This document shows positions 697 through 11,689 of a DNA stretch of 12,051 nucleotides, in pieces; within the stretch, counting starts at the first letter, position 1; every line of letters begins with the position of its first letter. Below the pieces are notes generated by a model. It worked only from the letters and a program-made list of their open reading frames with translations, searched no databases and had not been told where the DNA came from. A program made the translations under genes and the position numbers. Where the stretch lies: assembly GCA_024409185.1 (NCBI GenBank), contig JAKSUD010000009.1:1-12051 (forward strand), in the 5' to 3' direction. This stretch comes from an archaeon (lineage in GTDB: Archaea > Methanobacteriota > Methanobacteria > Methanobacteriales > Methanobacteriaceae).

Positions 697-1221
697 TCAT
701 TCAAAGAATTCGCTAACTGAAATTAAAGGTTCTAATTTAACTCCTTCAGATTCAAAGGATTCTAAAGCACCTTCTTCTCTATCCACTACAACAAAAGCTC
801 TTTTTACAATTCCTCCGTTGTTTTGAATAGCTTTAATAGCTTTAAGAAGAGATCCTCCAGTAGTTGTTACATCTTCAACAACAATAACATTATCATCTTG
901 ATTAAGTTCTCCTTCAATTAATTTAGAAGTACCATATCCTTTCTTTTCTTTTCTAATCATTAAAAGAGGAATTTCAGATTCTAAAGAAACTGCAGTTGCA
1001 ATTGGAACCGCACCAAGAGCTGGGCCTGCAACTTTATCGATTCCATCATTTTCAATTTTTTCAGTGATTAATTTAGCTATTGTTGATAAAATTTCAGGAT
1101 TAGTGATAGCTTTTTTCATATTTACATAATAATTACTTTTTTTACCTGAAGCTAAAGTAAAATCTCCTTGCTCAAAAACATGATTTTCTTTTAAAATTTT
1201 AATTAAAAACTCTTTAGACAT
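697..1221 (-). CDS. pyrE: Orotate phosphoribosyltransferase
   Basis: PyrE transfers the phosphoribosyl group of PRPP to orotate, giving OMP in the fifth step of UMP synthesis, in the cytoplasm. The 174-residue product has the usual short archaeal length. The orotate-side motif [16 protein letters not shown] is at residues 21-36. The basic loop segment RKEKKGYGT is at 90-98. The PRPP-binding motif [13 protein letters not shown] is at 112-124, with acidic pair E116/D117. These leave little doubt about the family. The ATG at 1219-1221 is set by a GGAGA SD at 1228-1232 with a 6-nt spacer. The PRC-barrel gene ends 40 nt upstream on the same strand, so the two are probably cotranscribed. T-tracts follow the TGA stop. 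All key motifs are intact. Confidence 0.95.
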
Positions 1222-5095: not shown

Positions 5096-5527
5096 ATGAC
5101 AGTAAAACAAATTTCTGTATTTATTGAAAATAAAGAAGGAAGAATCAAAAAAGCAGTGAATGCCATTTCAAAAGAAGGAATAAATATAAGAGCTCTTTCA
5201 CTTGCAGATAATACTAAATATGGAATTTTAAGATTAATTGTATCTGACAATGAAAAAACAAAAGAAGTTTTAAAAGCAGAAAATTTCATTGTAAAAGAAA
5301 CAGAAGTTTTAGTTGTTGGAGTAAAAGATGAACCTGATGGATTAAACTCAACTCTTGAAATATTTGAAAATGCTAATATTAATGTTGAATATATTTATGC
5401 ATTTGTAAGTTCTAAAACTGATGAAGCTATTGTAGTTATTAAAATAGAAGATTATGAAGAAGGTATTAAAGCATTATCTAAAGAAAATGCAAACATATTA
5501 ACTGAAGAAGATATTAACCAATTATAA
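5096..5527 (+). CDS. Tandem ACT-domain protein
   Basis: This is a 143-residue soluble protein made of two ACT domains and nothing else. The first covers about residues 3-70, with the ligand-loop pattern ENKEGRIKKAVNAISKEGIN at 11-30. The second covers about 73-143, with KDEPDGLNSTLEIFENANIN at 77-96. ACT domains bind small ligands, usually amino acids, and transmit an allosteric signal. Stand-alone tandem ACT proteins often sit beside PaaK-like ligases, as here, which suggests they sense an aromatic amino acid or regulate the ligase; this is inference. The ATG is fixed by an excellent GGAGGG SD (5085-5090) with a 5-nt spacer. The strong SD after a 95-nt gap may mean separate translation control within the same operon. 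A large hairpin follows the TAA stop. Confidence 0.85.
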   Translation: MTVKQISVFIENKEGRIKKAVNAISKEGINIRALSLADNTKYGILRLIVSDNEKTKEVLKAENFIVKETEVLVVGVKDEPDGLNSTLEIFENANINVEYIYAFVSSKTDEAIVVIKIEDYEEGIKALSKENANILTEEDINQL

Positions 5528-5674: not shown

Positions 5675-5965
5675 TTAAATTTCTTGAAGCATTTTTGCTA
5701 TATCTTTTCTACTATAACCTAATTTAACAAGTAAAGTTTTAAAATTATCTTTTTGATTCCAATCAATAGCTCTCCAAGCTTTAAAATCATTTTTTAAGAT
5801 TGCATTAACGAGTAATTGAATAGTAATCAAATCTTCACTATTAATAACCATTAATGTATCTTCACCTGAAAAAGTTCCTTCAGGATCAATTAAAGCAAAT
5901 TCACCAGTATTTTGATTCTTTTTAATAATTGCATTATTAATTTTGTATTGCAAGATTTCACCCAT
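5675..5965 (-). CDS. Hypothetical protein, 96 residues
   Basis: I do not recognise this family. The product is small, soluble and without a signal peptide or membrane segment. Residues 1-40 look beta-rich (EILQYKINNAIIKK, then GEFALIDPEG). Residues 42-60 look helical (NSEDLITIQLLVNAILKND). After the aromatic patch FKAWRAIDWN (61-70) comes a likely helix pair, NFKTLLVKLGYSRKDIAKML (74-93), which loosely recalls a helix-turn-helix but is too short to claim one. No SD precedes the ATG. A TATA-like box about 25 bp upstream instead suggests a leaderless transcript. A TTG at 5951-5953 with GGGTGA before it is an alternative start, but would cost four residues. It is transcribed alone, convergent with the ACT gene. 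Codon use matches its neighbours, so it is probably a real lineage-restricted gene. Confidence 0.6.
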   Translation of the reverse strand: MGEILQYKINNAIIKKNQNTGEFALIDPEGTFSGEDTLMVINSEDLITIQLLVNAILKNDFKAWRAIDWNQKDNFKTLLVKLGYSRKDIAKMLQEI

Positions 5966-6163: not shown

Positions 6164-9100
6164 TTAAATATCATCTATATAATCATTTAATGATTTTACA
6201 CCAATTTCATTTTCTTTAATAGCTTGAATTGCATTTAATGCAGCTCTTGCACCTGCTAAGGTAGTTACATAAGGAATTCCAAGCTCAATAGCTAAACGTC
6301 TGATTTCATAACCATCTTCAGAAGCTTGTTTTCCAGAAGGAGTATTAATAATCAAATCAATTTCATTATTTAAAATAGCTTCTTTAATATTAGGAGTTCC
6401 TTGAGATACTTTTTTAACTCTTTCTACAGGTACACCTAAAATAGAATTTGCAGTACCACGAGTAGCTACAATATCAAATCCTAATTCATGGATTTTCTCA
6501 GCAATAGGTTGGATTTTCTTTTTATCTTGATCTCTTACAGTAATGAATACTTTACCTTCTTTAGGTAAATCCATACCTGCAGATAATTGAGATTTATAGA
6601 ATGCAAGACCAAAGTTTTCATCTATACCAATACTTTCCCCAGTAGATTTCATTTCAGGACCTAAAACTGTGTCAGCTTCAGGTAATTTTAAGAATGGGAA
6701 AACAGATTCTTTAACAGCAACATGGTTAATTTTAATTTCTTTAGTTAAACCAAAGTCTTTAAGTTTTTTACCCATCATTAAAGAAGTAGCTACTTTAGCA
6801 AGAGGAATACCAATAGCTTTACTTACAAATGGTACAGTTCTACTTGCTCTTGGGTTAGCTTCAATAATATAAACTTGTTCTTCATCTAATTTTACTGCAT
6901 ATTGAATGTTCATTAAACCAGTGACATCTAATTCTAAAGCTAATTTTTTAGTATGATTTCTAATAACTTCAAGTAAATGTTCAGGAATAGTTTGCGGTGG
7001 AATTACACAAGCAGAGTCACCAGAGTGAACACCAGCTTCTTCAATATGTTCCATGATTCCAGCTATGAAAACATCTTCTCCATCAGCAAGAACATCCACA
7101 TCTAATTCTACAGCATCTTCTAAGAATTTATCAACGAGAATAGGATGTTCAGGAGAAACTTTTACTGCTTCTTTCATATATTCCTCAAGTTCATCTAAAT
7201 CATAAACTATTTCCATAGCTCTTCCACCAATAACATAGGAAGGACGTACAAGAACTGGGAAACCAATATTTTCAGCAGCTTCTTTAGCTTCTTCAAAGGA
7301 ATTAGCTAATCCATAAGGAGCTTGACGAATATTTAATTCATTCAATACTTGAGTAAATCTTTCTCTATCTTCAACTCTGTCAATACTTTCATAAGGAGTA
7401 CCTAAAATTTTAACACCTGCTTTTGCAAGAGGTACAGATAAGTTAATAGAAGTTTGACCACCAAATTGGACAATTACTCCTTCAATATCTTCTTGTTCAA
7501 TAATTCCCATTACATCTTCAAAAGTTAATGGTTCAAAGAATAATTGATCAGAAACATCATAATCAGTACTTACAGTTTCAGGGTTGTTATTTACAAGAAT
7601 AGTTTCAATTCCAGCTTCTTTTAAAGCTAAACTTGAATGTACACAACAGTAATCAAATTCAATACCTTGACCAATTCTAATAGGTCCTGCACCTATAATT
7701 AAAATCTTTTTATTTTCAGAATTAACAATTTCATTATGTTCATCATAAGTACTGTAATAATAAGATTCTTTAGCTTCAAATTCACCAGCACAAGTATCTA
7801 CTTTCTTATAAGAAGGTTTGATATCGAATTTATCAAGTAATACTTTTACATCCTCTTCTTCTAAACCAGCTATTTTTGCAATAGTAAAGTTAGAGAATCC
7901 TAATTTTTTAGCTTCAAGTAAGAAGTCTTTATCTTGAATAGATTCTTTAGTGATTTTTTCTTCAAAATCAACAATATTTTTAATTTTGTATAAGAAGAAT
8001 TCATCAATATTAGCTAATTTGAATAATTCAGGAACAGACATTCCATCTTTTAATGCAGAGTATAATTGGAATAATCTTTCATCTGTAGGATTAATCAAAT
8101 CATCTTCAGTATAATCATAATATTCAAAACCATGTAAACCAATATCTAATGAACGAATAGCTTTTTGAATAGCTTCTTCAAAAGTTCTACCAATAGCCAT
8201 TACTTCACCAGTAGCTTTCATTTGAACACCAATTTTAGTGTCGATTCCTTTGAATTTATCAAATGGCCATCTTGGGATTTTTACAACAATATAATCAATG
8301 GATGGTTCAAATGAAGCAGGGGTTTCTTTAGTAATATCATTTTTAATTTCATCTAAAGTTAAACCAAGTGCGACTTTTGAGGATATTTTAGCAATTGGGT
8401 AACCAGTAGCTTTAGATGCAAGTGCACTACTTCTACTTACACGAGGATTAACTTCAATAATTTTATATTCATTAGTTTCAGGATTAAGTGCAAATTGAAT
8501 ATTACATCCACCACAAATTCCTAAAGCTTTAATAATTTTAATAGATGCTTCTTTAAGACGAGCAGTTGTTTTATCATCTAAGTTTTGAATTGGAGCTACA
8601 ACCATACTTTCTCCTGTATGAATACCCATTGCATCAATGTTTTCCATATTACATACAATAATACAAGTATCGTTTTTATCTCTCATAACTTCGTATTCAA
8701 TTTCTTTCCAACCGAGAACAGATTCATCAATTAAAACTTGATTAATGAAACTCATATCAAGACCATGGGTAGCAATTTCAATTAATTCTTCTTTATTATG
8801 AGCTACTCCACCACCAGTACCTCCTAAGGTAAATGCTGGTCTGACAATAACTGGATAACCAATTTCTTCAACAGCTTCTAAAGCTTCATCAATTGATTCA
8901 ACAGCTTGACATTTTGGAATAGGTTCATTAAGTCTATCCATAAAATTAGCAAAAAGGTCTCTGTCTTCTACATCAGCAATAGTTTGAACATCAGAACCAA
9001 GAACTTTAATTCCATCTAAAAGACCTAATTTACCAAGTTCAGTAGCAATATTTAAACCAGTTTGTCCCCCCATAGTTGGTAAAATAGAATCAATATTTTC

Positions 9101-9340
9101 TTTTTCAATAATTTGAGCAACTAATTCTGGAGTTAAAGGTTCTGTATAAACAGTATCTGCCATATCCATATCAGTTTGAATAGTAGCAGGGTTACTATTA
9201 ACAAGAACAGTTTCTATTCCTTCTTCTCTTAATGATTTACAAGCTTGAGATCCAGAGTAATCAAACTCTGCAGCTTGACCAATTTGAATAGGTCCAGAAC
9301 CAATTATAAGTACTTTTTTAATATCCTCATCAACAGGCAT
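6164..9340 (-). CDS. carB: Carbamoyl-phosphate synthase large subunit
   Basis: CarB makes carbamoyl phosphate from bicarbonate, ammonia and two ATP, for pyrimidine and arginine synthesis. The 1058 residues show the full duplicated architecture. The first synthetase half starts LIIGSGPIQIGQAAEFDYSG (11-30), with ATP-grasp motifs VRPAFTLGGTGGG (166-178) and EVNPRVSRSSALASKATG (296-313). A linking oligomerisation region spans about 400-540. The second half starts LIIGAGPIRIGQGIEFDYC (547-565), with VRPSYVIGGRAMEIVYD (698-714) and EANPRASRTVPFVSKA (827-842). An MGS-type allosteric domain follows from about 928, including GTANSILGVPVERV (962-975) and IINTPSGKQASEDG (997-1010). Ligand residues of the regulatory site in LGPEMKSTGE (893-902) are kept. 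It is one uninterrupted gene, unlike the split carB of some methanogens. carA lies 162 nt upstream, and only a weak SD-like GGGGAT precedes the ATG. Confidence 0.97.
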   Translation of the reverse strand: MPVDEDIKKVLIIGSGPIQIGQAAEFDYSGSQACKSLREEGIETVLVNSNPATIQTDMDMADTVYTEPLTPELVAQIIEKENIDSILPTMGGQTGLNIATELGKLGLLDGIKVLGSDVQTIADVEDRDLFANFMDRLNEPIPKCQAVESIDEALEAVEEIGYPVIVRPAFTLGGTGGGVAHNKEELIEIATHGLDMSFINQVLIDESVLGWKEIEYEVMRDKNDTCIIVCNMENIDAMGIHTGESMVVAPIQNLDDKTTARLKEASIKIIKALGICGGCNIQFALNPETNEYKIIEVNPRVSRSSALASKATGYPIAKISSKVALGLTLDEIKNDITKETPASFEPSIDYIVVKIPRWPFDKFKGIDTKIGVQMKATGEVMAIGRTFEEAIQKAIRSLDIGLHGFEYYDYTEDDLINPTDERLFQLYSALKDGMSVPELFKLANIDEFFLYKIKNIVDFEEKITKESIQDKDFLLEAKKLGFSNFTIAKIAGLEEEDVKVLLDKFDIKPSYKKVDTCAGEFEAKESYYYSTYDEHNEIVNSENKKILIIGAGPIRIGQGIEFDYCCVHSSLALKEAGIETILVNNNPETVSTDYDVSDQLFFEPLTFEDVMGIIEQEDIEGVIVQFGGQTSINLSVPLAKAGVKILGTPYESIDRVEDRERFTQVLNELNIRQAPYGLANSFEEAKEAAENIGFPVLVRPSYVIGGRAMEIVYDLDELEEYMKEAVKVSPEHPILVDKFLEDAVELDVDVLADGEDVFIAGIMEHIEEAGVHSGDSACVIPPQTIPEHLLEVIRNHTKKLALELDVTGLMNIQYAVKLDEEQVYIIEANPRASRTVPFVSKAIGIPLAKVATSLMMGKKLKDFGLTKEIKINHVAVKESVFPFLKLPEADTVLGPEMKSTGESIGIDENFGLAFYKSQLSAGMDLPKEGKVFITVRDQDKKKIQPIAEKIHELGFDIVATRGTANSILGVPVERVKKVSQGTPNIKEAILNNEIDLIINTPSGKQASEDGYEIRRLAIELGIPYVTTLAGARAALNAIQAIKENEIGVKSLNDYIDDI

Positions 9341-9502: not shown

Positions 9503-10564
9503 TTAATAATCTTTAATTAACTGAATAAATTCATCAAAGAAACCATCAGCAGCACTTGGTTCAAATTGAACAGTTCTTAAAGGTAATTCTTTATGTTTAA
9601 ATCCTTCAGAAGTACCATCATTAAGGTTAATTTGAGTTAATTCTAAATCAGTGCCATTTAAAGAATCTTTATCTACAACAAAACCATGGTTTTGAGTAGT
9701 AATAAGAACTTGACCAGTGACTAAATCTTTTACTGGTTGGTTAGCACCTCTATGACCCAATTTCATTTTAGAAGTAGTAGCACCGAAAGTTTTAGCAATT
9801 AATTCATTACCTAATGAAACTCCAAATACTGGGAATTTATTAAGTAATTGTTCAATATTAGCTACAGTTTCAGTTAATCTTTCAGGGTTTCCAGGACCAT
9901 CAGAAACCATAAGACCATCTACACCATAATCAAGAATATCTTGATAAGAAGCATTGTAAGGGAACAAAGCAACATTAATTTCATTTTCAAGGAAATTATC
10001 TATAACACTTTTTTTAACACCACAATCAATAATAGCTACAGTTTTATTAAAATCACCAAAGGTTTTAACTCCATCTGTAGATACTAAAGGAACTAAATCT
10101 AAGTCAATAATATCTTTTTGATTAGCTACTTTCCCAAGAAGATCTTCATCACTAATTTCTTCAGTTGAAACTGCACATTTTAAAGCACCTTCTTCACGAA
10201 GTTTTAAAGTTAAAAATCTTGTATCAATATCCATAATTCCTGGAACTTCAAATTCATTTAAAAATTCATCTAAAGTCTTTTTAAAACCCCAGTTAGAGAC
10301 TTGAGTACAGATTTCACGTGCAACATATGCCTCAGCTTGGATTTTATCAGATTGATACCATTCTTCACTAACTCCATAATTACCTTCTAAAGGATAATTA
10401 GACATTAAAATATGTCCTTTAAAAGAAGGGTTAGTTAAAGATTCAACATAACCAGACATAGCAGTTGTAAAAGCAAGCTCACCAACTGCAGTAGTTTCAA
10501 AACCAAAGGATTTACCCTTAAGTATAGTGCCATCTTCTAAAGCTAATTTTGCTTCATTCACCAT
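9503..10564 (-). CDS. carA: Carbamoyl-phosphate synthase small subunit, glutaminase triad substituted
   Basis: CarA normally hydrolyses glutamine and passes ammonia to CarB. The 353-residue protein keeps the family frame: an N-terminal CarA domain (FTTAMSGYVESLTNPSF, 32-48), then a class I amidotransferase fold from about 172 (VAIIDCGVKKSVIDN, VSDGPGNPERL, GHRGANQPVKDL, ITTQNHGF). The catalytic positions are changed. The usual GICLGHQ reads GVSLGNE (248-254), putting Ser250 at the nucleophile. The usual QFHPEA reads QFEPSA (333-338), so His becomes Glu335 and Glu becomes Ser337. The codons are unambiguous (TCA at 9817-9815) and the frame is intact, so this is not a sequencing slip. Glutamine hydrolysis should be absent; ammonia-dependent synthesis with a structural CarA is inferred. 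GGTGAT lies 4 nt (after GGTGA) before the ATG. Family assignment is certain; the functional reading is likely. Confidence 0.95.
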   Translation of the reverse strand: MVNEAKLALEDGTILKGKSFGFETTAVGELAFTTAMSGYVESLTNPSFKGHILMSNYPLEGNYGVSEEWYQSDKIQAEAYVAREICTQVSNWGFKKTLDEFLNEFEVPGIMDIDTRFLTLKLREEGALKCAVSTEEISDEDLLGKVANQKDIIDLDLVPLVSTDGVKTFGDFNKTVAIIDCGVKKSVIDNFLENEINVALFPYNASYQDILDYGVDGLMVSDGPGNPERLTETVANIEQLLNKFPVFGVSLGNELIAKTFGATTSKMKLGHRGANQPVKDLVTGQVLITTQNHGFVVDKDSLNGTDLELTQINLNDGTSEGFKHKELPLRTVQFEPSAADGFFDEFIQLIKDY

Positions 10565-11269: not shown

Positions 11270-11302
11270 ATTAAGATTTTATTAAGATTTTATTAAAGAT
11301 TT
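11270..11302. repeat. 11-bp tandem repeat spanning a stop codon
   Basis: ATTAAGATTTT occurs at 11270-11280 and 11281-11291, followed by a degenerate copy at 11292-11302. The repeat covers the last codons and TAA stop of the membrane protein gene and part of the spacer before the next gene. It probably arose by slippage and may have altered the C-terminal SLIKS residues. Confidence 0.7.
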
Positions 11303-11689
11303 ATTTAAAAAATAACTATAAATTTTAATTAGAACAATATAAATTAAACAGGATATAAAATAACACACTACATCATTTAAATCAAAAACTGCTCCATTTT
11401 TAATAAATAAAGCAATATATTCCCACACAAATGATGCAATAGCTGTAATAAACAATAATAAATAAATATTAGTTAATTTAACAGGATAAAGTGCATTTAA
11501 AAAACTAAATAAAACAATACTTGCTAATAAATCTGAAAAATAAAAAGCAAAAAACCAATTTGGAGATTTGAATAAAAGATTTTTTAAAAAATAAAGAAAA
11601 AGTGAAATAATGAAGATAAAAATATTAAATATTCTAAAATTTTTATCATTTCTCTCAAAGGAAATCTTTTTTAAATTATGAAAGTTCAT
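11282..11689 (-). CDS. Small four-helix membrane protein, VanZ-like pattern
   Basis: This 135-residue protein is mostly hydrophobic. After a basic, polar start (residues 1-18) come four probable membrane helices at about 19-36, 46-68, 74-95 and 104-128, then a short basic tail. The segment WEYIALFIKNGAVFDLNDVV (89-108) recalls the acidic WE...D..D pattern of small VanZ-like and DUF2809-type membrane proteins, whose molecular roles are mostly unclear. That resemblance is by eye only. Basic residues at the start favour a cytoplasmic N-terminus. The ATG has only a weak SD-like GGTTGA. The region around this start is duplicated upstream (11729-11760). The gene sits between the tail-anchored gene (101 nt upstream) and the soluble 151-residue gene (27 nt downstream), probably as one operon. 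Confidence 0.6.
   Translation of the reverse strand: MNFHNLKKISFERNDKNFRIFNIFIFIISLFLYFLKNLLFKSPNWFFAFYFSDLLASIVLFSFLNALYPVKLTNIYLLLFITAIASFVWEYIALFIKNGAVFDLNDVVCYFISCLIYIVLIKIYSYFLNKSLIKS

Follow-up and report, generated by a model that had tools for sequence, protein, structure and literature searches.

Carbamoyl phosphate feeds arginine and pyrimidine synthesis and also serves the cyanide ligands of [NiFe] hydrogenase in archaea that have this enzyme (PMC13260591, excerpt). Glutamine is taken as the nitrogen donor for all bacterial carbamoyl-phosphate synthetases (CPSases), Cys269 and His353 of Escherichia coli CarA are described as essential for its hydrolysis (PMC6245113, excerpt), and every type of CPS but CPS1 is stated to use glutamine (PMC4655335, excerpt). 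In the 12,051-nucleotide stretch of methanogen DNA analyzed here (the window), the gene for the small subunit, carA, encodes none of the residues of the glutaminase triad, which raises the question of whether its product can still draw nitrogen from glutamine or whether the enzyme runs on ammonia alone. The window belongs to a genome (G000) of 1,221,534 bases in 261 contigs that is 64.2% complete, and a second genome of the same genus (g1), G017, about 82% complete, also carries a triad-less carA. The carrier clade is small and made up of gut-type methanogens akin to Methanobrevibacter. The genes of the window that concern the enzyme and its pathway are as follows:

9503-10564, minus strand: carA, a triad-less CPS small subunit of 353 aa, with an ATG start and no internal stop
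6164-9340, minus strand: carB, a complete large subunit of 1058 aa, 162 bases downstream of carA
697-1221, minus strand: pyrE, orotate phosphoribosyltransferase (TIGR00336, 187.7 bits against a cut-off of 106.8)

CarA matched TIGR01368, a profile that is silent on catalysis, with 389.6 bits (cut-off 307.35), and contains the Pfam domains PF00988 and PF00117, the latter at 120.5 bits, indicating that the amidotransferase fold is kept. CarB matched NF003671 with 1584.7 bits (cut-off 599) and aligned full-length with E. coli CarB (residues 1-1065). The two genes are separate and adjacent rather than fused into one polypeptide, an adjacency also found in G017, and pyrE encodes a later step of a pathway that consumes carbamoyl phosphate. 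Two reading frames without a Pfam match lie on either side of this pair:

11282-11689, minus strand: a 135-aa hydrophobic membrane protein two genes upstream of carA, fast-evolving (dN/dS 0.39) and with 65% identity to the corresponding G017 protein
5675-5965, minus strand: a 96-aa open reading frame flanked by carB and an ACT-domain protein (5096-5527)

The original prediction held that CarA has lost Cys, His and Glu of the triad and carries Glu254 in the nucleophile motif. This was confirmed by re-reading of the codons by script, by alignment with E. coli CarA and by an alignment with 15 relatives, which agreed with the E. coli-based placement of the triad positions. The changes, and their state in the seven triad-less sequences (from G000, G017 and the protein clusters P0001-P0005), are:

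9815-9817, minus strand: Ser250 (TCA) replacing the nucleophile Cys, from the alignments and codon re-reading
9803-9805, minus strand: Glu254 (GAA) at the position four residues after the Cys (Cys+4), Glu in all seven
9560-9562, minus strand: Glu335 (GAA) replacing the catalytic His, Glu in all seven
9554-9556, minus strand: Ser337 (AGT) replacing the triad Glu, Ser or Thr in the seven
9539-9544, minus strand: site of a six-residue deletion, between codons 341 and 342, from the alignment with relatives

Counted along the alignment, residues 250, 254, 335 and 337 correspond to E. coli CarA 269, 273, 353 and 355. The codons at these positions in G014, the nearest genome with an intact triad, are TGT, CAC, CAC and GAG, and differ from those of the window by 2, 2, 2 and 3 bases, respectively. 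As two to three bases differ per codon and independent sequences carry the losses, a read error does not explain them. An artefact of sequencing, assembly or frame might be suspected in a metagenome-assembled genome (MAG) broken into 261 contigs, but G017 and P0002-P0005 carry the same changes and the frame is open throughout, leaving this explanation a negligible probability. The deleted segment lies directly behind the C-terminal motif, where relatives read GPGPNDT, and was read off the alignment as corresponding to the position of E. coli Gly359, which we take to be the residue altered in the 'escape route' mutant.

At Cys+4, a position that presumably binds glutamine in E. coli CarA, the predicted change from Gln to Glu254 holds relative to E. 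coli, which has Gln there, and does not hold for the genus, in which CarA with an intact triad has His in 14 of 16 cases (L003-L016) and Gln in two. Given the His in these intact relatives, changes in the glutamine pocket may have preceded triad loss. Cysteines are present in the window CarA at positions 86, 130 and 181 and histidines at 51, 271, 293 and 324. Cys86 and Cys181 are family-wide residues, Cys181 being Leu in four of the seven triad-less sequences, while Cys130 is kept in all seven but is also present in 42 of 253 intact rows. Checked against triad-less and intact rows, these residues include no evident candidate for a replacement Cys or His, and the concern that the catalytic pair might lie elsewhere in the protein thus found no substitute to support it. 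Hydrolysis of glutamine by other residues, for example Ser250 or Glu335, would draw on the identity of Glu254 and Glu335 in all seven sequences; against it, position 250 is Ser or Asp, position 337 is Ser or Thr, the loop is deleted, and the two E. coli residues are reported as essential (PMC6245113, excerpt), which makes such chemistry highly improbable. Judged from sequence, the CarA glutaminase is almost certainly dead.

When the CarA proteins of relatives were aligned and the positions mapped on a tree, as had been proposed along with the original prediction, the sequences that share the losses of the window CarA formed one clade within the family. In genus g1, carA was matched in 18 of 19 genomes and the triad is intact in 16 of these, the exceptions being G000 and G017, whose CarA reads Asp250, Glu254, Glu335 and Thr337. 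Across the family, carA was found in 132 of 138 genomes and read in all 132; the triad could be made out in 130, of which 126, G026 included, carry Cys-His-Glu, leaving G000, G017, G095 (His to Arg) and G135 (Cys to Ser). Outside the family the triad was intact in 19/19 genomes read. The clusters P0001-P0005, each 353 aa long, have the same losses and the same deletion as the window CarA. A maximum-likelihood tree of 57 rows, made by a quick search with the pocket columns left out and with SH-aLRT support only, without bootstrap, placed G000, G017 and P0001-P0005 in one clade (SH-aLRT 100) that groups with G014 and P0007 (SH-aLRT 94). As P0001 is close to the window CarA (98% identical) and P0005 adjoins G017, about five distinct lineages stand behind the seven sequences. 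The tree demands at least three changes of triad state.

The further changes arose independently and belong to two other genera. In a lineage of genus g5, L043 (from G095), P0088, P0100 and P0107 have Arg for the catalytic His with the Cys kept, and the Asn of the NHG motif is replaced by Ser or Gly; P0107 additionally has Asp for the triad Glu. In a lineage of genus g10, L134 (from G135) and P0108 show Cys to Ser alone, the same change as in human CPS1, with His and Glu kept. These two lineages have lost 2-7 conserved positions without significant enrichment in the pocket (p 0.05 to 0.36), and the case for a dead glutaminase in them consequently rests on single triad residues. As other amidotransferases keep their motifs in these genomes (GuaA subunit A and a PurQ-type protein in G095, a TrpG-type protein in G135), here too the change is particular to CarA.

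We next turn to where conservation was lost in the window clade. A position was called conserved when 98% or more of 253 intact rows agreed there, a set that counts some genomes twice (as locus and protein, or by a second locus). By this measure the triad-less sequences have lost 13-14 of 111 highly conserved positions and kept 97-98, and 9-11 of the lost positions fall in pocket segments, which account for 22 of the 111 (Fisher p 4e-5 to 4e-7; segments 247-256, 289-296 and 331-346, chosen after the alignment had been viewed). Cys250, Phe269, Ser290, Tyr334, His335, Glu337, Pro340 and two loop residues are lost in all seven. AlphaFold2 models of the window CarA and of the intact P0012, both monomers built from a shallow alignment of the same 48 sequences, had a mean pLDDT of 80.6 and a pTM of 0.77 for the former versus 91.1 and 0.90 for the latter. 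The best structural matches of the window model were E. coli CarA chains (TM 0.84-0.86), and its largest drop in pLDDT relative to P0012 was at residues 35-74, a stretch whose E. coli counterpart, we assume, holds tunnel and glutamine-site residues; in the models, the drop fits a loosened or opened pocket. Where frame, length and fold had been described as intact, the frame proved so, the length is short by six residues, and the packing of residues 35-74 is predicted to be weaker.

Comparison of carA between G000 and G017 gave a dN of 0.147, a dS of 0.40 and a dN/dS of 0.37 (bootstrap 0.26-0.52), with 0.37 for the N domain and 0.39 for the C domain. The corresponding dN/dS was 0.094 (0.068-0.124) for carB, 0.039 (0.016-0.073) for hisH, which is partly cut off in G000, and 0.093 for a 366-aa neighbour of hisH. 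carA is thus about four-fold looser than carB and about nine-fold looser than hisH, and comparable to the upstream membrane protein gene (0.39). Among intact pairs of the genus, 41 of 120 of which had usable dS, values were 0.022-0.069 for carA and 0.010-0.055 for carB; carB of the triad-less pair is also above its intact range, and the carA/carB ratio of 3.9 lies inside the intact-pair range of 0.64-4.98. These values suggest that carA is loosened yet constrained and that carB is a working gene. Neither mark of a pseudogene, a broken frame or neutral evolution, was seen: the frame is open over 353 aa in all seven sequences, and the dN/dS of 0.37, with its upper bound of 0.52, lies below one. 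A slower decay, in which CarB alone would make enough carbamoyl phosphate from ammonia and CarA would have no present role, could account for a carA dN/dS above the intact range and as loose as that of the nearby 135-aa gene, and for the lower AlphaFold2 confidence; yet the frame stays open, both domains remain below a ratio of one, and the conserved positions are largely kept with losses concentrated in the pocket, and we consider decay unlikely.

The large subunit is full length in both G000 and G017, whose CarB proteins are 95% identical and have in common 18 substitutions at sites that do not vary among 16 relatives. The largest cluster of these falls in one segment:

8528-8563, minus strand: CarB residues 260-271, carrying four of the 18 changes unique to the triad-less pair

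This clustering had a permutation p of 0.010, and no such substitutions were found there in the control genomes G014, G013 and G011. In E. coli, CarB residues 262-273 presumably line the tunnel. Tunnel-gate residues are present as Cys230, Ala249 and Ala311, read off the alignment with E. coli, where we take the gate to be Cys232, Ala251 and Ala314. In the window CarA, Ala274 occupies the position of E. coli Gly293 (counted on the alignment), with no blocking Gln. Given this Ala and the gate residues, ammonia could come in through the old tunnel as well as from the side. Human CPS1 has the gate residues Cys648, Ala667 and Ala729, and a side entry for ammonia has been proposed for it (PMC4655335, excerpt). 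The C-terminal domain of the window CarB, the domain at which N-acetylglutamate activates CPS I, aligned with CPS1 (5dot, E 1.8e-8) and was closer to E. coli (E 1.3e-18).

The genomic setting bears on whether glutamine could enter the pathway by another door. Both G000 and G017 have pyrB, for aspartate carbamoyltransferase (TIGR00670, 418 and 421 bits), and argF, for ornithine carbamoyltransferase (TIGR00658, 442 and 441 bits), above the curated cut-offs. G000 has one carA and one CarB-type gene, the two halves of CarB giving two hits on the window contig. A search for a second, intact carA, proposed with the original prediction, found none in the contigs of G000 (64.2% complete), where no second carB was found either, and a second carA was likewise not found in G017 (82%). 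An intact copy in the missing genome parts could supply the glutaminase and free the window copy for something else, and the incompleteness of both genomes leaves room for one; the triad-less copy nevertheless adjoins the only CarB found, both searches came back empty, and each other family genome listed has a single match at the CarA threshold, and we regard a hidden second carA as very unlikely.

Two broader explanations were tried and rejected. A general loss of glutamine use is at odds with G017, in which the HisH and PurQ motifs are intact and glutamine synthetase is present; as these motifs are kept, glutamine use has not been lost in general. HisH of G000, cut by a contig end, retains its nucleophile motif. 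Glutamine synthetase was not found in G000 or G135, both incomplete, and searches of the incomplete G000 and G017 turned up no TrpG-, GuaA- or PyrG-type domain; G014, with an intact triad, is also without PyrG. The second explanation was a small ATP-grasp CPS serving as backup: a 41-kDa CPS has been reported from Methanobrevibacter smithii, of the same archaeal family as the window (PMC6022934, excerpt), although its CPS role has been doubted and the protein placed in pseudomurein synthesis (PMC11915815, excerpt). Unlike the window enzyme, it is a small ATP-grasp protein without CarA. CarB itself is an ATP-grasp protein, in contrast to the amino-acid-kinase fold of carbamate-kinase-like CPS. 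ATP-grasp matches in frames of 376-406 aa, possible counterparts of the M. smithii protein, occur in triad-less and intact genomes alike.

The ammonium transporter Amt (PF00909) was considered as a marker of the ammonia-rich niche suggested with the original prediction. It was not found in 4/4 triad-changed genomes, all incomplete, versus 8/125 intact ones (Fisher p 4.5e-5), and among genomes at most 85% complete it was missing in 4/4 versus 4/30 (p 0.0015). The control gene pyrG (PF06418) was not found in 4/4 versus 9/125 (p 6.5e-5) and, at 85% completeness or less, was missing in 4/4 versus 6/30 (p 0.0045). As the control gives the same pattern, the Amt association is unusable and was rejected as a niche marker; both absences may reflect MAG gaps or general reduction. 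In single genomes, pyrG (CTP synthase) was not found in G000, G017, G095 and G135, nor in G014, which is rated 90% complete, and in genus g10 Amt was not found in 3/3 genomes (G135, G136 and G027, one of them 93% complete), of which G135 alone has a changed triad.

The reading we prefer, and hold to be probable, is that the window CarAB is an ammonia-only carbamoyl-phosphate synthetase. The original prediction of an ammonia-dependent enzyme is upheld as far as the loss of the glutaminase in sequence, its sharing across the clade and a complete, conserved CarB are concerned. CarA would not hydrolyse glutamine and was likely kept as a cap with structural and regulatory roles but no catalysis, retained because CarB would need it to hold its shape, for allostery or to shield intermediates. 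Ammonia from the cytoplasm would enter either by way of the opened glutaminase pocket and old tunnel or from the side, along the interface of the subunits, and would meet carboxyphosphate in CarB's first half; carbamate would then move on to the second half of CarB as usual. In E. coli CPS, ammonia is described as working only at a very high, likely unphysiological concentration (PMC6245113, excerpt), so that either the habitat would be ammonium-rich or the window enzyme would handle ammonia better. A bolder version, which we offer tentatively and think doubtful, would make CarA a rebuilt intake port for ammonium. Glu254 and Glu335, present in 7/7 clade rows, with Ser or Asp at position 250, would form an acidic pocket binding NH4+, loss of the six-residue tunnel-wall loop would open the ancestral tunnel outward, and CarA would pass ammonia from the cytoplasm directly to CarB; the change from glutamine to ammonia would then have occurred three times in Methanobrevibacter-type methanogens, each time by a different lesion.

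Among known enzymes, the ammonia-only CarAB predicted here is most usefully set beside vertebrate CPS I. Human CPS1 (PDB 5dot) is unable to use glutamine because it has Ser294 in place of the Cys (PMC4655335, excerpt). Both thus keep a dead glutaminase-like domain with a Cys to Ser change, and ammonia, the sole nitrogen donor known for CPS1, is predicted to be that of the window enzyme. In contrast to the two genes of the window, CPS1 is one polypeptide that needs N-acetylglutamate; its Gln318, at the place of E. coli Gly293, closes the old glutamine tunnel (PMC4655335, excerpt), whereas the window CarA has Ala274 there, and the window CarA has also lost His, Glu and a loop. E. coli CarAB (CPS II) has the same subunits, both of which align full-length with the window proteins, but hydrolyses glutamine with Cys269 and His353, whereas the window triad is gone. 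Structures of its C269S and G359F variants have been solved (1c30 and 1m6v), and variants of the E. coli enzyme in which the glutamine tunnel was blocked or perforated are reported to show normal activity with external ammonia (PMC4655335, excerpt).

If the ammonia-only reading is true, a prokaryotic CarAB with a dismantled glutaminase, together with the site changes of two further lineages, would break the rule of glutamine as donor, the window CarAB would stand as a natural parallel to the tunnel mutants of E. coli, and the glutamine-to-ammonia transition known from vertebrates would become testable in an independent case. To our knowledge, such a switch has otherwise been reported for the urea-cycle enzyme of vertebrates. 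Among the matches listed in the open-access literature, none described a prokaryotic CarA lacking the triad, which is weak evidence of novelty. P0003, a member of the triad-less clade, is labelled 'glutamine-hydrolyzing' by its source, an annotation error.
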